Source of the DNA: Pelagibacteraceae bacterium AG-404-N13 | GTDB lineage: Bacteria; Pseudomonadota; Alphaproteobacteria; Pelagibacterales; Pelagibacteraceae | DNA: 51,773 nt | Assembly (NCBI GenBank): GCA_003216255.1 | Contig: QCJD01000012.1 | Location: 1 to 51,773 of the forward strand | Direction of reading: 5' to 3' | Part shown: piece after piece, positions 6,188-14,353 of the stretch | Layout of the letters: every line of letters begins with the position of its first letter | Numbering within the stretch: the first letter of the stretch is position 1 | Notes under the pieces: model-generated | What the model was told of the DNA's origin: nothing | Seen by the model: only the letters and a program-made list of their open reading frames with translations | Databases searched by the model: none | Position numbers and translations under genes: made by a program

Positions 6188-7684
6188 ATGAAATTGTTAC
6201 TTATACTTGGAAATCAATTATTTCCATTAAAAAACATTAACCGCTTCAAAAATGACCACCTAGTATTTATGGCGGAAGACTATGAATTATGCACTTATGA
6301 AAAACATCATAAATTAAAAATATTATTATTTTTATCTGCTATGAGATCTTATGCAGATAAATTAAAAAAAAATAAATTCAAATTAGAATATTCAAAAATC
6401 GATTCTATCGATTTCAAGAAAAGCTACTTGGATAAAATCAAAAAATTAATAAAATCAAAGAAAATATCTGAAATAACAAGCTTTGAGATTGAAGATAAAT
6501 TTTTTGAAGAAAAAATTGAAAGTTTTGCGAAAAAAAACAAATTAAAATTGAATAAAATACAATCTCCTATGTTTTTAAATTCAAGAGAAGAATTTCAAGA
6601 TTATTTATCAACAAATAAAAAACCTTTCATGGCAGCTTTTTACAAAGGGACAAGAAAAAAACTTAACATTTTAATAAAAAAAAATGGAGATCCTGAAGGT
6701 AATAAATGGAGTTTTGATGAAGATAATAGGAAAAAACTTCCTAAAAATATTTCAATTCCAAAATTTCCTAAAATTCTTGAGACTAAACATACTAAAATAT
6801 TAAAACCTATCGTCGAAAAAATTTTCAAAAACCACCCAGGAGATACAAAAAATTTTTGGTTTGCAACTGAATTTAATGATGTAGTTAAAATTTTTAATTT
6901 TTTTATAAAACAGAAATTAAACCTTTTTGGTGACTATGAAGATGCTGTAAATCAGGATAACAATATTTTATTTCATAGCGCTTTAAGTCCTTATATCAAT
7001 CTTGGGTTAATAACTCCTGATTTTATTATTTCAAATACTTTGGAATTTCATAAAAAAAATAAAATAAGACTTAATTCTCTAGAAGGCTATTTAAGACAGA
7101 TAATAGGATGGCGAGAATTTATGAGGGGTATTTACCAGAAGTATAGTGAAGAAATGGAAAATAAAAATTTTTTTAATCAAAATAGAAAAATGAAAAACTC
7201 TTGGTACAATGGAACAACTGGTTTACCACCTTTAGATTATGCAATTAGAAATGCAATGAATAATGGTTGGTCACATCATATTGAAAGATTAATGATACTG
7301 TCAAATATAATGAACTTGTGTGAACTTAAACCAAAAATTGTTTACAAATGGTTTATGGAAATGTTTGTAGACTCATCTGATTGGGTGATGGTTCCAAACG
7401 TTTATGGAATGGGTTTGTTTAGCGATGGAGGAATTTTTGCAACAAAACCATATATTTGTGGATCGAGTTATTTTATGAAAATGATGGATTTTAAAAAAGG
7501 AAGTTGGTGTAATATTATGGATGGACTTTATTGGAGGTTCATAAATAGAAATAGAGCATTTTTCAAAAAAAATCCTAGACTTTCAATGATGGTAAGAATA
7601 TTTGATAAAATGAAACCTGAAAGAAAAAAGCTGATTTTATCTGAAGCAGAAAATTTTATTAAAAAAAATACTTATGACAATTAA
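6188..7684 (+). CDS. Cryptochrome/photolyase of the PhrB (FeS-BCP) lineage
   Basis: A 498-aa FAD-dependent photolyase-family protein of the bacterial PhrB type, whose known members repair (6-4) UV photoproducts with light. It has an N-terminal alpha/beta antenna domain (to about residue 130) and a helical FAD-binding domain with IIGWREFMRGIY at about 305 and NNGWSHHIERLM at about 358-369; the two histidines match the catalytic pair of Agrobacterium PhrB. DWVMVPNVYGMG and DGLYWRFI are also typical. Of the four cysteines that bind 4Fe-4S in PhrB, only the last seems kept (Cys441); Cys378 and Cys424 are elsewhere. The last codons overlap the DCC gene. Confidence 0.88.
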   Translation: MKLLLILGNQLFPLKNINRFKNDHLVFMAEDYELCTYEKHHKLKILLFLSAMRSYADKLKKNKFKLEYSKIDSIDFKKSYLDKIKKLIKSKKISEITSFEIEDKFFEEKIESFAKKNKLKLNKIQSPMFLNSREEFQDYLSTNKKPFMAAFYKGTRKKLNILIKKNGDPEGNKWSFDEDNRKKLPKNISIPKFPKILETKHTKILKPIVEKIFKNHPGDTKNFWFATEFNDVVKIFNFFIKQKLNLFGDYEDAVNQDNNILFHSALSPYINLGLITPDFIISNTLEFHKKNKIRLNSLEGYLRQIIGWREFMRGIYQKYSEEMENKNFFNQNRKMKNSWYNGTTGLPPLDYAIRNAMNNGWSHHIERLMILSNIMNLCELKPKIVYKWFMEMFVDSSDWVMVPNVYGMGLFSDGGIFATKPYICGSSYFMKMMDFKKGSWCNIMDGLYWRFINRNRAFFKKNPRLSMMVRIFDKMKPERKKLILSEAENFIKKNTYDN

Positions 7685-8024
7685 AGTTTTTTTTAACAAT
7701 TCATGCAGTGTATGTAGATTAGAAATTAACCACTATAAAAAAGTTTCTGACAGTAATCTAGAATGGATCGATATTACAAATAATGAAGATGCGTTAAAAC
7801 TTACATCTAAGAATCAATACGAATTATTAAGAAGACTTCATGTTATAGACGATGGAAAAGTTATTGCAGGCGCAAAAGCTTTTGTTGTTATTTGGTCAAA
7901 AATTCCAAAATATAAATTTTTATCAAAATTATTTTCAATAAAATTTTTTTTTATAATTTTTCATTACGCATATGAGTTTGTTGCATACTTTCTATTTTTA
8001 AAAAACAGAAATCAGCTAAAATGA
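7674..8024 (+). CDS. DCC-family thiol-disulfide protein (DUF393)
   Basis: A 116-aa protein whose N-terminus MTIKVFFNNSCSVCRLEI matches the DCC (DUF393) family; here the usual DxxCxxC becomes NNSCSVC, keeping both cysteines. The family resembles thioredoxin-like redox proteins, but reactions are not defined. The C-terminal third is hydrophobic and basic and may touch the membrane. It overlaps the photolyase gene by 11 bases and the DUF2256 gene by ATGA, so all three are translated as a unit. DCC genes often neighbour photolyase and DUF2256 genes in marine bacteria. Confidence 0.82.
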   Translation: MTIKVFFNNSCSVCRLEINHYKKVSDSNLEWIDITNNEDALKLTSKNQYELLRRLHVIDDGKVIAGAKAFVVIWSKIPKYKFLSKLFSIKFFFIIFHYAYEFVAYFLFLKNRNQLK

Positions 8025-8146
8025 AAAAACAAAATTTGCCTTCAAAAATATGTCCTATTTGTAAGAGATCTTTTGTGTGGCGAAAAAAATGGCGTCTTAA
8101 TTGGAGTAACGTAAAGTATTGCTCAAAAAAATGTGCCTCTAGTTAA
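8021..8146 (+). CDS. DUF2256 mini zinc-finger-like protein, 41 aa
   Basis: A 41-residue basic protein. It has two CxxC/CxxxC-type pairs, KICPICKRSF and YCSKKCASS, flanking an invariant-looking VWRKKWRLNWSNV stretch, the pattern of the DUF2256 family. Four cysteines so placed suggest one bound zinc, which is inference. The start ATG overlaps the DCC stop (ATGA). The last 8 bases overlap the convergent permuted-photolyase gene. DUF2256 genes are repeatedly found beside photolyase genes; function unknown. Confidence 0.85.
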   Translation: MKKQNLPSKICPICKRSFVWRKKWRLNWSNVKYCSKKCASS

Positions 8147-9281
8147 ATTTTTGGATTATTTTTGGGATATAATTTTTGAAATTAAAAAAACCTTTATTGC
8201 AATACTGCCAAGAAAATTGATCAAGCTCTCTATATAAAAATTTAACTTCACTAAATTTTTTTGAATCTATGTAATCTAGTGTTTCTCCTACTGTTGGATA
8301 TAATAAATATGAATCGGCAATATCTTCAATTTCACTAACATCTAATATTTCACATTCTATCGATTTATCTTTAAGTCTTTTCTTTTGATCTTCAAACAAT
8401 TGAGTCTTAAAATTCATTGTTTTTTCACTTAATTTAATTTTTCTGTTTTGATTTTGATTAGTAATTAATTTAATTTTATTAAATTTGTTATTTATTAATT
8501 CGCTTAACTCCAAAGATAAACTATTTTCAAAGACTAGTAAATTTTTTCCTTCTTCAATATCTGGATTAATAAAATTTTTTTTTATAATAGGATAAAATTT
8601 TTCTACTTTTTTTGGAGATGCATTTTCTTTTAGTTTAATGTTTTTAAATCTATTATCAGTAAATTTTTTTATATTCCATTCACTTGCTAAATAATTTTTT
8701 CCTTGAGTTTGTATTCCAGCTACCCATCTCCAACCCAGTGTATTTGATGCTGGATCTCCATCGTAAAGATGTTGCATAAAAAATTCTGCACCTAATTGCC
8801 ATGGCAATTCTAAAGTAAATATCCAAATGCTAGCAAACCACATTCTAGCATGATTATGTAAATAATTATTTTCTTTCAACTCACCAACCCATTCGTTAAA
8901 ACATTGAATTTCTGTACTTCCTTCAACAGCTTTTTTATAATCTTGATCGTTTTTATATTTGTCTCTAATTTGATTTAATTCTAACAAATAATCTGTCCAA
9001 ACATCTGGCCTTAGTTCTATCCATCCTTTCCAAAAAGTTCTCCACATAATTTCTTGAATAAATTTTTCATTTTTAACAAAAGAATATTTATTTAATGATT
9101 TTTTTATTAACTCAACTTCGCTTATAACGCCGTGTGTTACATATGGAGATAAACATGAAACATTAGATCTTTTGTCTGGTCCATAATCAAAATTTCTTAA
9201 TTTTGAATAATTTACAAGGTTATTTTCGATAAACTCGTTCATTAACTCTTCTGCAAAAGTTCTTGAAGGCTTAAAATTCAT
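8139..9281 (-). CDS. Photolyase-like FAD-binding protein with antenna-like region at the C-terminus
   Basis: A 380-aa protein that begins directly with the photolyase FAD-binding domain (residues about 1-215): RNFDYGP and VSCLSPYVTHGVIS near the N-terminus, EIMWRTFWKGWIELRP, then NYLHNHARMWFASIWIF and DGDPASNTLGWRWVAG. No antenna domain precedes it. Residues about 245-380 alternate beta-like and helical stretches (LLVFENSLSLEL, SYLLYPTVGETLDYID, FSWQYCNKGFFNF), suggesting an alpha/beta domain placed after instead of before the FAD domain. Repair activity is unproven. Its ATG overlaps the DUF2805 stop by 11 bases. Converges with the DUF2256 gene. Confidence 0.82.
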   Translation of the reverse strand: MNFKPSRTFAEELMNEFIENNLVNYSKLRNFDYGPDKRSNVSCLSPYVTHGVISEVELIKKSLNKYSFVKNEKFIQEIMWRTFWKGWIELRPDVWTDYLLELNQIRDKYKNDQDYKKAVEGSTEIQCFNEWVGELKENNYLHNHARMWFASIWIFTLELPWQLGAEFFMQHLYDGDPASNTLGWRWVAGIQTQGKNYLASEWNIKKFTDNRFKNIKLKENASPKKVEKFYPIIKKNFINPDIEEGKNLLVFENSLSLELSELINNKFNKIKLITNQNQNRKIKLSEKTMNFKTQLFEDQKKRLKDKSIECEILDVSEIEDIADSYLLYPTVGETLDYIDSKKFSEVKFLYRELDQFSWQYCNKGFFNFKNYIPKIIQKFN

Positions 9282-9868: not shown

Positions 9869-10621
9869 ATGAAAACTATATGGATTACAGGAGCAAGTAG
9901 CGGCATAGGAAAATCTTTAGCTTTAAAGTTTGCTAATGAAGGATGGCAGGTTGCCGCATCTGCTAGAAGAGAAGATTTATTAAATCAATTATCTGAGTCT
10001 AATCAAAATATTTCTCCATTCCCTTTGGATGTAACTAGCAGAGAAAATTGTGAGGAAATTTTTGAAAAAATTAAAAATAAATTTGAAAGTATTGATACAT
10101 GTTTTTTTTCTACTGGTACTTGGGATCCAAAAAAAGAAAAAGAGATTGATATAGACCAAATGAAAAAAGTCATGGAGGTAAATTTTTTTGGAACTCTAAA
10201 TTGCATTAAAGCAGTTGAAATGTATTTTAAAGAAAAAAAAAATGGAAATATATCAATAGTTTCTTCTATTGCTGGCTATAGGGGTTTGCCGAATTCTACA
10301 GGATATGGAGCATCAAAAGCTGCTTTAAATAATTTAGCAGAAAGTCTTTATTTTGATTTTGGAAGATACAATGTAAGAGTTTCTTTGATTTCTCCAGGAT
10401 TTATAAAGACACCAATGACAGACAAAAATCAATTTAAAATGCCTTTTTTAAAAACTCCAGAGTTTGCTGCTGAAAAGATTTATAATGGATTAATAAATGG
10501 ATCTAGTTTTGAAATAGATTTTCCTAAAGAACTAACATTAATTTTAAAATTTTTGAAAATTTTACCTGATAGTGTTTATTTTAAATTGATAAGAAAATTA
10601 ACCAAATATCAAAAGCTTTAG
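9869..10621 (+). CDS. Classical short-chain dehydrogenase/reductase
   Basis: A 250-aa cytoplasmic NAD(P)-dependent oxidoreductase with all classical SDR marks: TGASSGIGKSLA at the N-terminus, VNFFGTLNC, SIVSSIAGYRG and catalytic GYGASKAALNNLAE, then SLISPGFIKTPMT. Unlike the SDR at 5462-6172 the active site is intact. SDR genes of this kind recur next to CFA-like/DUF1365/amine-oxidase clusters, which suggests a lipid or fatty-acid carbonyl substrate, but this is inference from context. It converges on the DUF3833 gene with one base between stops. The leader carries a strong palindrome. Confidence 0.85.
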   Translation: MKTIWITGASSGIGKSLALKFANEGWQVAASARREDLLNQLSESNQNISPFPLDVTSRENCEEIFEKIKNKFESIDTCFFSTGTWDPKKEKEIDIDQMKKVMEVNFFGTLNCIKAVEMYFKEKKNGNISIVSSIAGYRGLPNSTGYGASKAALNNLAESLYFDFGRYNVRVSLISPGFIKTPMTDKNQFKMPFLKTPEFAAEKIYNGLINGSSFEIDFPKELTLILKFLKILPDSVYFKLIRKLTKYQKL

Positions 10622-10622
10622 A

Positions 10623-11171
10623 TTAATCTTTAAAAAACATAACTGTTAGTTCTGCAACCTTAATACCAAATTTAGTCATCTTTGCTCTATTAATTGCTAC
10701 TTTTTCGTCTTGCATAAAAATCCAATCATCAAAAGTAATTTTAATTTCTTTTCCTTTTACTGGCACTAATAAGACATATTCAAATTTAAAAGCAGGTCCA
10801 TATGAATAACCTTTGGCGATGCCAACCACATCTTCGGCGGTTCCTTCATAATTGTGATTGTCTATTTTGTTTATTTTCCACTGTCTTGTTTGAACTTCGC
10901 CATCGCTCCAATTAAACTTTTCATCCAGAATTAGTTGTTTTCCATCCCATTTTCCATTTAAATCTGCAGAAAATTGTCTTGTTACTTTGCCAGATCGGTT
11001 TTGAAGTATTCCCCAGGCCTTTACGTTACCTGACATAAAATCTTCAATAATTAATCTCGGTTGCTTGTCTTTAAAATCTTCTGGTTTCATGGATTGCTTA
11101 CCTGAACAGCTTGTAATAAATAGAAGACTTACAATCAATAAAAATAATCTAAAACTTATTATTTGTTTCAT
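10623..11171 (-). CDS. DUF3833 lipoprotein, lipocalin-like
   Basis: A 182-aa exported lipoprotein: the signal peptide ends in a lipobox FITSC at about residues 18-22, so cysteine 22 would be lipidated. The body has the DUF3833 pattern, FMSGNVKAWGILQNRSGKV, a series of short beta strands with GYSYGPAFKFEYVLLVPV and DDWIFMQDEKVAINRA. The fold is thought to be lipocalin-like, suitable for a fatty ligand. It is the last gene of a long minus-strand series, 8 bases after the CFA-like gene. Function unknown; the association with lipid modification is contextual. Confidence 0.83.
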   Translation of the reverse strand: MKQIISFRLFLLIVSLLFITSCSGKQSMKPEDFKDKQPRLIIEDFMSGNVKAWGILQNRSGKVTRQFSADLNGKWDGKQLILDEKFNWSDGEVQTRQWKINKIDNHNYEGTAEDVVGIAKGYSYGPAFKFEYVLLVPVKGKEIKITFDDWIFMQDEKVAINRAKMTKFGIKVAELTVMFFKD

Positions 11172-11179
11172 AAAATTAA

Positions 11180-12358
11180 TTACTTATTTTGAAGAGAAAA
11201 TTGAATTAGATCTATATTTTTTGATTTAAACCCTGCTTCACAATAAGATAAATAAAAATTCCACATTCTTTTAAAATTTAGATCAAAACCTTGTTTAGAT
11301 ATTTGATCCCACTTTTTTAAAAACTCATCCCTCCATAATTTTAATGTGTTTGAATAATGGAAGCCATAAGATTCATATGTATTTATTGCCAAACCTTTAT
11401 CGAAAGATAAATCGTATAAACTTTTTTTCGAAGGCAAGAATCCTCCTGGAAAAATATATCTTTGAATAAAATCCTGTTTTGATTTGTATCTTTCAAAAAG
11501 ATCATCTTTAATTGTTATTGCTTGAATCGCAGCTTTGCCATTTTCTGACAAGTTGGATTTTATTGTTTGAAAATAGCTTGGTAGATAGTTCTTGCCCACC
11601 GCTTCAATCATTTCTATTGATGCAATAGAATTATATTTTTCTTGTACATCTCTATAATCTTTTAATTTAATTTGAATTTTTTCGTTTAATCCATTTTTAA
11701 ATATTCTCTTTTTTGCATATTCAAATTGTTTCTGTGATATAGTTATACAGTCCATCTTTATATCGTGATTTTTACCTACAAATTCTGCAAAACCTCCCCA
11801 TCCACAACCTATTTCTAAAATTTTATCACCAGGTTTTGGATTAATTAAAGATATAAGTTTTTTGTATTTATTCATTTGTGCAGACTCTAAACTATTTTCT
11901 TTTTTATCAAATATAGCACTTGAGTAAGTTAGACTAGGATCTAACCATAAAGAAAAAAATTCATTTCCTAAATCATAATGTTTAGAAATATTTTTTTTAC
12001 TTCTTTCCTTATCATTTTTTATAAATATGTTTTTTAATGAATTGACAAATGGAAAATCTAAAAAACCAGAAAATTTATGAATCACTTTTATATTCTTTGC
12101 TGACAACTCAATTAGATTGGTTAAATTATCTGTTTCAAAGTCACCCTTGATATAAGCTTCTGCCAAACCTATACTTCCATTTTTAATTATTTGATATGTA
12201 AATCCAGGTTTATTGATTTTAATTTTTACTTTTAATTCTTCTTTTAAGTCTCCAAAAATATATTTTTTATTATCAAAATTAGTTAATTCTAAACTTCCAT
12301 ATTTTATTAATTTTAAAAATTTAAAAACGATCTTATCAGTAATAATGTTTAATTTCAT
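11180..12358 (-). CDS. Cyclopropane-fatty-acid synthase-like SAM methyltransferase
   Basis: A 392-aa enzyme of the CFA family, which methylates or cyclopropanates double bonds of membrane phospholipid acyl chains using S-adenosylmethionine. Visible marks are HYDLGNEFFSLWLDPSLTYS, split as HYDLGNEFF and WLDPSLTYS, the SAM loop ILEIGCGWGGFAEF, IEMIEAVGKNYL and QRYIFPGGFLPS. Length fits the family. Its ATG overlaps the DUF1365 stop. In Rhodobacter a CFA homologue in a comparable cluster is needed for furan fatty acid synthesis, so the product may be a methylated or furan acid rather than a plain cyclopropane. Confidence 0.88.
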   Translation of the reverse strand: MKLNIITDKIVFKFLKLIKYGSLELTNFDNKKYIFGDLKEELKVKIKINKPGFTYQIIKNGSIGLAEAYIKGDFETDNLTNLIELSAKNIKVIHKFSGFLDFPFVNSLKNIFIKNDKERSKKNISKHYDLGNEFFSLWLDPSLTYSSAIFDKKENSLESAQMNKYKKLISLINPKPGDKILEIGCGWGGFAEFVGKNHDIKMDCITISQKQFEYAKKRIFKNGLNEKIQIKLKDYRDVQEKYNSIASIEMIEAVGKNYLPSYFQTIKSNLSENGKAAIQAITIKDDLFERYKSKQDFIQRYIFPGGFLPSKKSLYDLSFDKGLAINTYESYGFHYSNTLKLWRDEFLKKWDQISKQGFDLNFKRMWNFYLSYCEAGFKSKNIDLIQFSLQNK

Positions 12359-13122
12359 TTTTCTTCAATCGATATATTATTTTTTATTTTTAATTTTCGT
12401 TTAATTACTTTAATTCCTTTAAACCATAATTTTAATGCTTCAAAATGTATTGCGGCAATTATTTTAAATGTCATTAAAGGATGACAAATATAGGAAAATA
12501 TTAAATTTTTTTCGTTTAAATCTTTTGCTTTTCCATCTTGAGATGCATAAAGAAGTTTTCCTTCATTGTCTTTTTGATCAATAATAATAGAAATTTTCTC
12601 AGAGGTTTTTAGTACTCTAAAATAATAATGACATTCCATGTTTATAAATGGTGAAACATGAAACTTTTTTGTGCAATTATTAGTTATTAATTTATCATTA
12701 TCAGTTTTAAATATATACGTATGTTGTTCACCAAAAGTATTTTTAACCTCATACAAAATAGATATTAACTTTGAATTTTCATCATAAATAAAAAAAATGC
12801 TTAAAGGATTAAATACATAACCAAAAATTCTAGGGTAACACAATAGTTTGACTTGAACTTTTTCACTATTTATTCCAATTTTTTTTAAATTTTTAATTAT
12901 CCAACTTTTGATTGGAGTTCCGTCTCTAGGACCATGATCTATATCAAAAAAACTAATAATATTAAATTTGTTATACGAGAATATTTTAATTTTTTTTTCT
13001 ATTGTTTCCAATTCATCAATATCAATCAACAAAGAAAACACTTTATATTTAAAGTAATGCTCTTTAGGCTTGAACCTTCTATGAATAACTTTGCCATCAT
13101 AAATTATTGAATTTTTAATCAT
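12355..13122 (-). CDS. DUF1365 family protein
   Basis: A 255-aa protein with the DUF1365 N-terminus YDGKVIHRRFKPKEHYFKYK, then IDHGPRDGTPIKSWI and CYPRIFGYVFNPLSIFF. The family is almost always encoded between an amine-oxidase-like flavoprotein and a CFA-like methyltransferase, as here, and has no assigned reaction. It overlaps the flavoprotein gene by 8 bases and the CFA-like gene by ATGA, so the three products are likely made in fixed ratio. A role in unusual fatty-acid formation is inferred from the neighbours. Confidence 0.85.
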   Translation of the reverse strand: MIKNSIIYDGKVIHRRFKPKEHYFKYKVFSLLIDIDELETIEKKIKIFSYNKFNIISFFDIDHGPRDGTPIKSWIIKNLKKIGINSEKVQVKLLCYPRIFGYVFNPLSIFFIYDENSKLISILYEVKNTFGEQHTYIFKTDNDKLITNNCTKKFHVSPFINMECHYYFRVLKTSEKISIIIDQKDNEGKLLYASQDGKAKDLNEKNLIFSYICHPLMTFKIIAAIHFEALKLWFKGIKVIKRKLKIKNNISIEEK

Positions 13123-14353
13123 CTAAAGACTTAATCATTTCAATAGAAGATTTAATACCATCTTCATGAAAACCATAACCAAAATAACTTCCACAAAATA
13201 AAATATTTTTTTTATTTTGTAATAAAATTAATTTTTTTTGAAAATCTAATGCTTTTTGGTCAAAGTATGGATGTGTAAATTTAACTTTTTTTAATATTTT
13301 GTCTTCTTTTATTTGTGACATTGGATTTAATGTTAAAAAAATATTTTCATGACAATTCAAATTTTGCAACAAATTCAGCCAATATGTTAATGAGTTTTTT
13401 TCAGGGTTTTCTGAGTTTACATGTGAATTCCAAGATGACCATACTTGCTTATTTTTTGGCATTATATTTTCATCGGAATGAATAATTGCAATATTTTCCT
13501 TATATTTAAAATTTGACAGAAAAATTCTTTCTTCATCAAGAGGATTTTCTATTATTGATAAAGCTTCATCTGCATGATTAGCAAGTACAACTTTGTCATA
13601 ATCAAAAAATTCATTATCTCCTCCGTAATATACCTGAACACCAGTTGGTATTCTTTTTACATTATTAATTTTATAGTTTTTGTAATATTCTCCACTTATT
13701 TTTGATAAAATTTTATTTACATATGATTTGCTTCTATTTGAAACTGTAAACCACTGAGGTCTTTTCTTTAATTTAAATAAACCGTGATTTTGAAAAAATT
13801 TTAAGAAAAATTTCATTGGCATATTATTAGCCTCATAGGGAGGCATGGACCATATTGCTGATACCATTGGTATTAAATGATAATTAATAAATGATTTGGA
13901 TAAATTTTTTTTTCTTAAAAATTCTCCTAATGTAATATCTTCTTTTAAATCAGAAATTTTATCACAATGATTGTAAAACTTAATAATGTCAAAAAACATT
14001 TTAAGAAAATTTAAATTAAATATATTCGATTTATTTGAAAACATTCCTTTTAATCCTCTCCCACAATATTCAAAACTAGTACCTTGAACCGAAACCGAAA
14101 ATGACATATCGCTTTTTTCAATTTTAATTTGATTTTCTGAAAAGAAATTTATTAAGTTTGGATATGTTTCATGATTAAAAACAATGAAACCTATATCTAC
14201 AGGAATTTTTTTTTCATTGAGTAAAATATCTAATGTGTATGAATGACCACCAAAACGATCTTCTTTTTCAAATAAATCTACTTTATGTTTTTTTGATAAA
14301 TAATATGCTGCACTTAATCCAGATATTCCCGATCCAATTACTGCTATTTTCAT
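13115..14353 (-). CDS. Amine-oxidase-like FAD flavoprotein
   Basis: A 412-aa protein opening with the FAD-binding motif IAVIGSGISGLSAAYYLS and FEKEDRFGGHSYT, like flavin amine oxidases and phytoene-desaturase relatives. The segment VDIGFIVFNHETYPNLINFF and C-terminal FCGSYFGYGFHEDGIKSS are typical of the branch encoded with DUF1365 and CFA-like genes. A lipid-dehydrogenating role is plausible from context. It shares ATGA with the upstream EamA gene, linking it to the pxp genes. Cytoplasmic or membrane-associated; no signal peptide. Confidence 0.85.
   Translation of the reverse strand: MKIAVIGSGISGLSAAYYLSKKHKVDLFEKEDRFGGHSYTLDILLNEKKIPVDIGFIVFNHETYPNLINFFSENQIKIEKSDMSFSVSVQGTSFEYCGRGLKGMFSNKSNIFNLNFLKMFFDIIKFYNHCDKISDLKEDITLGEFLRKKNLSKSFINYHLIPMVSAIWSMPPYEANNMPMKFFLKFFQNHGLFKLKKRPQWFTVSNRSKSYVNKILSKISGEYYKNYKINNVKRIPTGVQVYYGGDNEFFDYDKVVLANHADEALSIIENPLDEERIFLSNFKYKENIAIIHSDENIMPKNKQVWSSWNSHVNSENPEKNSLTYWLNLLQNLNCHENIFLTLNPMSQIKEDKILKKVKFTHPYFDQKALDFQKKLILLQNKKNILFCGSYFGYGFHEDGIKSSIEMIKSLDD

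Follow-up and report, generated by a model that had tools for sequence, protein, structure and literature searches.

Pelagibacteraceae bacterium AG-404-N13, a member of the SAR11 group, encodes a photolyase-type protein in which the catalytic FAD domain comes first and an α/β domain follows. The gene occupies 8139..9281 on the minus strand of the window, that is, of the whole 51,773-nucleotide stretch of DNA analyzed here. The reading frame (8139-9281) starts with ATG and runs for 380 codons, and its identification as an inverted-order, NewPHL-like photolyase gene draws on the open reading frame, its orthologs, and a tree. We consider it very probable that the product is a SAR11 inverted photolyase that repairs cyclobutane pyrimidine dimers (CPDs) and that its C-terminal domain is related to the photolyase antenna domain, from which it has diverged in sequence and position, and packs on a shortened FAD domain.

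The protein is laid out as follows. The catalytic FAD domain, residues ~1–210 (8652..9281, minus strand), covers the family model except for its final third, as seen with Pfam, the predicted structure, and an alignment to 1owl, the Synechococcus/Anacystis photolyase. Its core (8688-9062, minus strand) matches FAD_binding_7 (PF03441) at residues 74–198 with an E-value of 1.6e-17, covering profile positions 1–127 of 203. In three canonical photolyases taken as controls, PF03441 spans positions 1–202 of 203, and PF00875 lies ahead of the FAD domain in all of them. The canonical, antenna-first layout is not what is found here. That is, Pfam gives no PF00875 match in the 380-residue protein up to an E-value of 1, and the 1owl alignment begins at query residue 4, opposite chain residue 207, with no α/β domain ahead of the FAD domain. 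A variable linker, residues ~211–245 (8547..8651, minus strand), is apparent in the alignments and is modelled without helix or strand. It is followed by the C-terminal α/β domain, residues ~246–380 (8142..8546, minus strand), whose antenna-like (Rossmann-like) fold is suggested by the models, Foldseek, VIA, and profile comparisons. Within it, the models and the family alignment mark a conserved tail, residues 351–375 (8157..8231, minus strand), with the pattern R-x-x-D-x-x-x-W-x(5)-G-F-F-x-F-K-x-x-I-P.

The full-length predicted structure (mean pLDDT 86.4, pTM 0.87, from an alignment of nine sequences) is helical up to residue 207. It then has a strand at 247–250, a helix at 261–264, a strand at 270–274, a helix at 286–305, strands at 310–314 and 324–327, a helix at 333–340, a strand at 347–349, and three short helices at the end. 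The order, FAD domain and then α/β domain, is thus confirmed to be opposite to that of textbook photolyases. A preliminary description of this DNA had noted the FAD domain at the front with no antenna before it, the strands and helices after about residue 245, and a second photolyase of ordinary order encoded opposite (DPRP and FAD domains, 6188-7684, plus strand), and all three observations hold. The same description had spoken of a permuted or re-wired photolyase. The domain order bears this out in Pfam, the model, and the 1owl alignment, but a strict circular permutation is rejected, since the FAD domain is truncated as well (PF03441 ends at position 127 rather than 202 of 203). What we have is an FAD domain, itself shortened, with one domain standing on its opposite side, and "circular permutation" is an overstatement.

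The FAD_binding_7 match and the flavin and lesion pocket residues place the protein, as judged from its sequence, in the photolyase/cryptochrome superfamily. We take residues E283, W286, N349, M353, and W392 to be the CPD contacts in 1owl; they correspond to E77, W80, N143, M147, and W186 here, and all five are conserved, each in 24 or 25 of the 25 family sequences. Residues N143, D174, D176, and N180, the last being the asparagine near the flavin, are present in 25 of 25. Of the residues that presumably form the electron-transfer triad of 1owl (W390, W367, and W314), the first two are retained as W184 and W161, and the outer tryptophan, W314, aligns with K108. At the level of the whole model, VIA superimposes the Thermus photolyase 2j07 over 209 residues with a Z of 15.1 and an rmsd of 2.8. 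Thirteen residues contacting FAD in the Synechococcus/Anacystis photolyase are given in the Figure 1 legend of PMC9426592. Nine of these 13 are identical in the 1owl alignment (Y228, S241, L243, S244, R287, N349, D380, D382, and N386, in 1owl numbering), and four are altered (T240, W280, T346, and A385).

The protein has cysteines at positions 43, 127, 310, and 361. When it is aligned with the Deinococcus relative P0006, only C127 pairs with an Fe-S cysteine (C155), while C240, C243, and C250 of P0006 stand opposite K213, K216, and a gap. Three of the four cysteines of the [4Fe-4S] set are therefore absent from the SAR11 protein in this alignment.

Photolyases with inverted layouts are known. 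The NewPHL photolyases are reportedly the subject of Emmerich et al. 2020 (NAR 48:12845), and the short photolyase-like proteins (SPL) are said to have been treated by Xu et al. 2021 (MBE). According to PMC13274461, NewPHLs/SPLs have an inverted topology and repair CPDs in single-stranded DNA, and the four NewPHL members named (Dinoroseobacter, Methylobacterium, Erythrobacter, and Rhodospirillum) are all Alphaproteobacteria. Published NewPHL sequences appear there as UniProt A8LJA9, M7YZC8, Q2N8F4, and B6IPR5. PMC9426592 describes a reverse domain order for Phr4/Phr5 and for Phr6; in Phr7, the FAD domain is N-terminal, a "Z-domain" stands at the C-terminal end, and the Fe-S cysteine set is missing. 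There, Phr7 is placed near Phr4/Phr6 and is identified with the CPD photolyases of Dinoroseobacter and Methylobacterium that act on single strands. The domain order had seemed novel at first sight; it is already in print, as NewPHL and as the Phr4, Phr5, Phr6, and Phr7 proteins of picocyanobacteria (PMC9426592, PMC13274461), and the surprise is much reduced for that reason.

The SAR11 protein has the NewPHL layout by Pfam and the models, with a catalytic FAD domain first and a separate C-terminal domain. It shares with NewPHLs these two domains, the inverted topology, and a bacterial host; it differs in being a SAR11 sequence, 380 residues long, compared here with NewPHL descriptions. With Phr7 of Prochlorococcus, likewise compared by description, it has in common the FAD domain in front, the C-terminal domain (the Z-domain of Phr7), an incomplete set of Fe-S cysteines, and the Phr4/Phr6 neighbors, although Phr7 is cyanobacterial. 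Phr4+Phr5, Phr6, and SPL share with it a shortened FAD domain in front and an antenna-type domain behind or in the next gene. However, CxxC-type Fe-S cysteines occur in four of the seven Phr4/Phr6-like proteins checked, whereas the SAR11 protein keeps one cysteine of four; and the antenna half of Phr4/5/6 is still near PF00875 (in Deinococcus P0006 at an E-value of 7.2e-4, below the cut-off), whereas the SAR11 rear half goes unrecognized by Pfam. Class I/III CPD photolyases share the FAD domain and the CPD pocket residues but carry the antenna first and have a full-length FAD domain.

In a tree of 60 FAD domains, the neighborhood is the one given for Phr7 in PMC9426592. The tree is a quick IQ-TREE reconstruction, with SH-aLRT as its only support measure and a midpoint root used for drawing. 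The 23 NewPHL-like sequences, including the SAR11 protein, lie on one side of a branch with a support of 99 (23 of the 26 collected were used; L004, L017, and L108 were dropped). Ten Phr4/Phr6-like sequences are their neighbors (91), and 27 canonical photolyases are separate (100). The SAR11 protein and the 22 other sequences with an FAD and a C-terminal domain thus form one clade beside the Phr4/Phr6-like proteins, a clade made up of the NewPHL-like sequences collected here. Class membership is argued from architecture, relatives, and the tree; together with the missing Fe-S set, these make it most likely that the protein is a SAR11 representative of the inverted class already known, of the NewPHL/Phr7 type.

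The gene is widely kept among close relatives. Full-length orthologs (residues ~1–380) occur in 23 of 37 genomes of its own genus, its own included, with genome completeness of 55–100%, and two further genomes of the genus have partial matches. Elsewhere in the order, full-length orthologs were found in 2 of 24 genomes, and in a class-wide draw of 192 genomes, 17, its own included, gave a match at an E-value below 1e-50. The nearest named relatives, in the best 80 of 568 loci, are 64–79% identical and all belong to Pelagibacteraceae or Candidatus Pelagibacter. Four of 142 matching plasmid records (Niveispirillum, Peteryoungia, Ruegeria sp. TM1040, and Novosphingobium) cover at least 98% of the length at 30–35% identity. 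PF03441 is matched twice in the genome's own assembly, which is 83% complete, and both matches fall inside the window. Among viral contigs, 18 pattern matches contained no relatives; ten phage records match through the FAD domain only, at 25–30% identity and none over more than 80% of the query, and a single PHROGs family is matched, also through the FAD domain only.

We now turn to the rear domain. Fold searches with the whole model were filled by matches to the FAD domain and say nothing about the rear part, and for that reason the rear domain was modelled alone (mean pLDDT 78.6, pTM 0.75, from 46 sequences), giving the order β-α-β-α-β-β-α-β. The top Foldseek match of this isolated domain in the PDB is 8ijy, the 6-4 photolyase of Synechococcus elongatus, with an E-value of 0.01, a probability of 1.00, and a TMq of 0.57; the second belongs to an unrelated family, also with an E-value of 0.01 and a probability of 0.84. 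No PDB match of the isolated domain reaches an E-value of 0.001 or better. Photolyases and cryptochromes make up 7 of the 50 Foldseek matches listed and 9 of the 50 VIA matches listed, including the first four of the latter, at Z of 7.6–7.3. The top VIA photolyase alignments cover 106–114 residues with an rmsd of 3.4–3.6. Five of the nine photolyase/cryptochrome alignments are confined to roughly the first 150 residues (residues 2–133 in 8ijy, for example), and the remaining four begin at residue 1 or 2 and extend to 229–318. The next matches are tied with them, as follows: a Vibrio protein, 1xmx (7.3), a universal stress protein (7.3), and shikimate dehydrogenases (7.2–7.1). The best Z of 7.6 falls short of the value of 8 from which VIA is informative, and VIA re-aligns only chains that Foldseek has ranked, so a fold missing from its list means nothing. 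In the fold comparison of residues 245–380 that the preliminary description had called for, photolyases, matched at their N-terminal part, are thus the top matches; since other Rossmann-like folds score level with them, the fold alone leaves the matter undecided. Residues 246–380 gave nothing above any cut-off in Pfam or NCBIfam. A YqiA esterase match to residues 245–377 (NCBIfam, E-value of 0.025, 14 bits against a cut-off of 252) was judged a chance match, and the 50 matches listed for the isolated domain by Foldseek and by VIA include no esterase.

The tail of this domain is conserved, with D354 in 24, W358 in 24, and G364 in 25 of 25 family sequences. Its pLDDT is 85–88 (residues 351–380) when modelled beside the FAD domain and 46–49 (residues 356–380) in the rear domain alone. 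This gap fits packing of the tail against the FAD domain, although it also reflects the different alignments used for the two models.

Profile comparisons with hhalign, whose E-values are those of single comparisons, point to a path from the rear domain to the antenna domain. The antenna profile was built from all 27 ordinary photolyases collected, and the C-terminal profile, like the conservation counts, leaves aside L108, a protein identical to L123. The Phr5-like profile (11 sequences) matches the canonical antenna profile (27) at an E-value of 1.1e-8, against 0.3 when reversed. The NewPHL-like C-terminal profile (25 sequences) matches the Phr5-like profile at 1.8e-5, against 0.59–0.65 for reversed controls. 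The direct comparison of C-terminal domains with the canonical antenna gives 0.0034, 0.016 with query and target swapped, and 0.047 with both reversed; across all three steps, one-sided reversed controls give 0.3–0.65. Further controls came from 16 families, of which f0 and f11, being photolyases of the inverted or split type, were set aside. Among the 14 that were left, f7 looks by eye like the catalytic tail of the DPRP photolyase rather than an antenna. Forward and reversed, the best of the 14 reached 0.007 with the C-terminal profile, 0.059 with the Phr5 profile, and 0.0093 with the antenna profile, and the excluded f11, the family with the Phr5-like genes, scored 8.9e-4 with the C-terminal profile. 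The match of the C-terminal domains to Phr5 is therefore ~390 times better than the best control. In contrast, the direct step to the antenna is not clearly above the best control of 0.007 and, by itself, is not convincing.

The signal is carried by the relatives of the SAR11 protein. With the eight sequences from SAR11 and its order removed, the C-terminal domains match Phr5 at 2.4e-5 and the antenna at 7.9e-4; the eight alone give 0.22 and 0.32, that is, no match. Since those eight nevertheless match the 17 other alphaproteobacterial C-terminal domains at 3.3e-16, the link to the antenna runs through relatives. Gene arrangements show related layouts. In Deinococcus P0006, the FAD domain comes first and the rear half weakly matches PF00875 (E-value of 7.2e-4, 20 bits against a cut-off of 26.6). 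At all eight of the best alphaproteobacterial loci (L161–L168), a Phr4-like FAD-only gene is followed by a small Phr5-like antenna gene, as read directly at seven and by tblastn at L162. Neighboring FAD-only and antenna-only genes, with a 4-base overlap, also occur in Deinococcus sp. QL22 (L183). Split Phr4/Phr5 genes are described for picocyanobacteria in PMC9426592, and pairs of this type in Alphaproteobacteria and Deinococcus extend beyond the picocyanobacteria treated there. The profile data suggest that the rear half is an eroded copy of the half that normally stands in front. Relocation of the antenna to the rear, as raised in the preliminary description, is thus partly and indirectly supported by the rank of photolyases in Foldseek and VIA and by the chain from C-terminal domain to Phr5-like protein to antenna; against it stand the near-tie in fold scores (Z of 7.6 against 7.3–7.1), the weak direct step, and the lack of a match for the SAR11-order sequences taken alone (E-values of 0.2–0.3).

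How do other readings fare? The rear domain could be an unrelated Rossmann-like domain recruited by an antenna-less ancestral "short photolyase", its likeness to the antenna being that of a shared fold. The universal stress proteins and shikimate dehydrogenases that VIA places level with photolyases would agree with such recruitment, as would a direct antenna match that is weak and, for the SAR11-order sequences alone, missing. SPLs are moreover reported to be without the α/β domain and to be possible ancestors of the family (PMC9649867). Nonetheless, photolyases head both the Foldseek and the VIA listings, the C-terminal domains match Phr5 far beyond any control, the Phr5-like match to the antenna is strong, and the FAD-only gene precedes the antenna gene at eight of eight alphaproteobacterial loci. 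We regard recruitment as unlikely, and for the "short" photolyases the evidence leans toward a relocated antenna over primitive antenna-less ancestry.

The function might also differ. Replacement of the outer triad tryptophan at the aligned position (K108) and the presence of cryptochromes among the FAD-domain matches are compatible with a photoreceptor, a cryptochrome-like signalling flavoprotein, or with a repair-dead protein. Against this stand the five CPD contacts, conserved in 24 or 25 of 25 sequences, and N180, present in all 25. Published relatives with the inverted layout repair CPDs (PMC9426592 and PMC13274461, citing Emmerich 2020), and we think a signalling or inactive protein rather improbable. 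An FAD domain that begins at residue 4 with no antenna ahead could, finally, betray a canonical gene that lost its N-terminal part by truncation or misassembly and reads on into unrelated downstream sequence. This reading is scarcely credible and was dropped because the 380-residue frame is conserved across genomes, namely the 23 of 37 of the genus, the best 80 of 568 loci, and other alphaproteobacterial orders.

We therefore return to the CPD-repairing inverted photolyase, and suggest that it works as follows. The N-terminal helical domain would bind FAD and hold the CPD in a class I-like pocket, and blue or UV-A light would excite FADH−, from which an electron would split the dimer; the conserved residues and the published class point to both steps. 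The C-terminal α/β domain, which would be akin to the photolyase antenna domain though diverged and displaced, may pack with its conserved W/GFF tail on the FAD domain and close the side that, in canonical photolyases, is covered by the lost C-terminal helices. A preference for single-stranded DNA may be carried over from the published members by analogy. An antenna pigment is probably not needed, or some other pigment may be used.

It is tempting to extend this to the whole group, in a proposal to which we give somewhat less than even weight. The "sealing" domain of NewPHL would be a relocated, worn-down antenna, and Phr4+Phr5 (split), Phr6 (fused), and NewPHL would be stages in the history of a single lineage whose antenna shifted to the rear of a shortened FAD domain. 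The "short" photolyases would then not be primitive antenna-less ancestors. The tail with D354, W358, and GFF would stand in for the FAD-domain helices that were lost and might also provide the outer tryptophan for electron transfer.

The second photolyase of the window (6188..7684, plus strand; open reading frame and Pfam) has the ordinary order, DPRP (PF04244) and then FAD_binding_7, and is of the prokaryotic (6-4)/PhrB kind, as judged from its DPRP domain. By eye, its C-terminal stretch is missing the CxxC pair of the Fe-S members, and the Fe-S-less Phr2 forms described in PMC9426592 are likewise without this pair. Among the best 80 of 568 Pelagibacteraceae loci, 79 with more than 1.2 kb of downstream sequence, a relative of this second photolyase occurs in 35, convergent and downstream in all 35. 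Between the two photolyases lies a gene for a DCC1-like thiol-disulfide oxidoreductase (7674..8024, plus strand; open reading frame and Pfam), which overlaps the end of the second photolyase gene and has a relative in 8 of the 80 loci. A run of genes at 9869-14353 encodes an SDR, a DUF3833 protein, a cyclopropane-synthase-like methyltransferase, a DUF1365 protein, and an FAD/NAD(P) amine-oxidase-like protein. We take this run to resemble the light and singlet-oxygen regulons of other alphaproteobacteria. A functional cluster with the inverted photolyase was considered and dropped because SDR and DUF3833 genes, sought in flanks of up to 2.5 kb, were found in 1 of the 80 loci only. A gene for an AarF/UbiB-family kinase is annotated beside or near the inverted photolyase in Ruegeria, Peteryoungia, and Asticcacaulis (L106, L107, L110, and L025), and in a SAR11-order genome, a neighbor of the inverted photolyase resembles this kinase by eye.

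SAR11 bacteria are among the most abundant cells of sunlit seawater, and the inverted photolyase is common in the genus studied here, being full length in 23 of 37 genomes even with incomplete ones counted. The relation between the rear domain, Phr5, and the antenna bears on whether all photolyases and cryptochromes descend from antenna-less "short" photolyases. Should the rear domain indeed be a moved antenna, the reading of the short forms as ancestors would lose an important premise.
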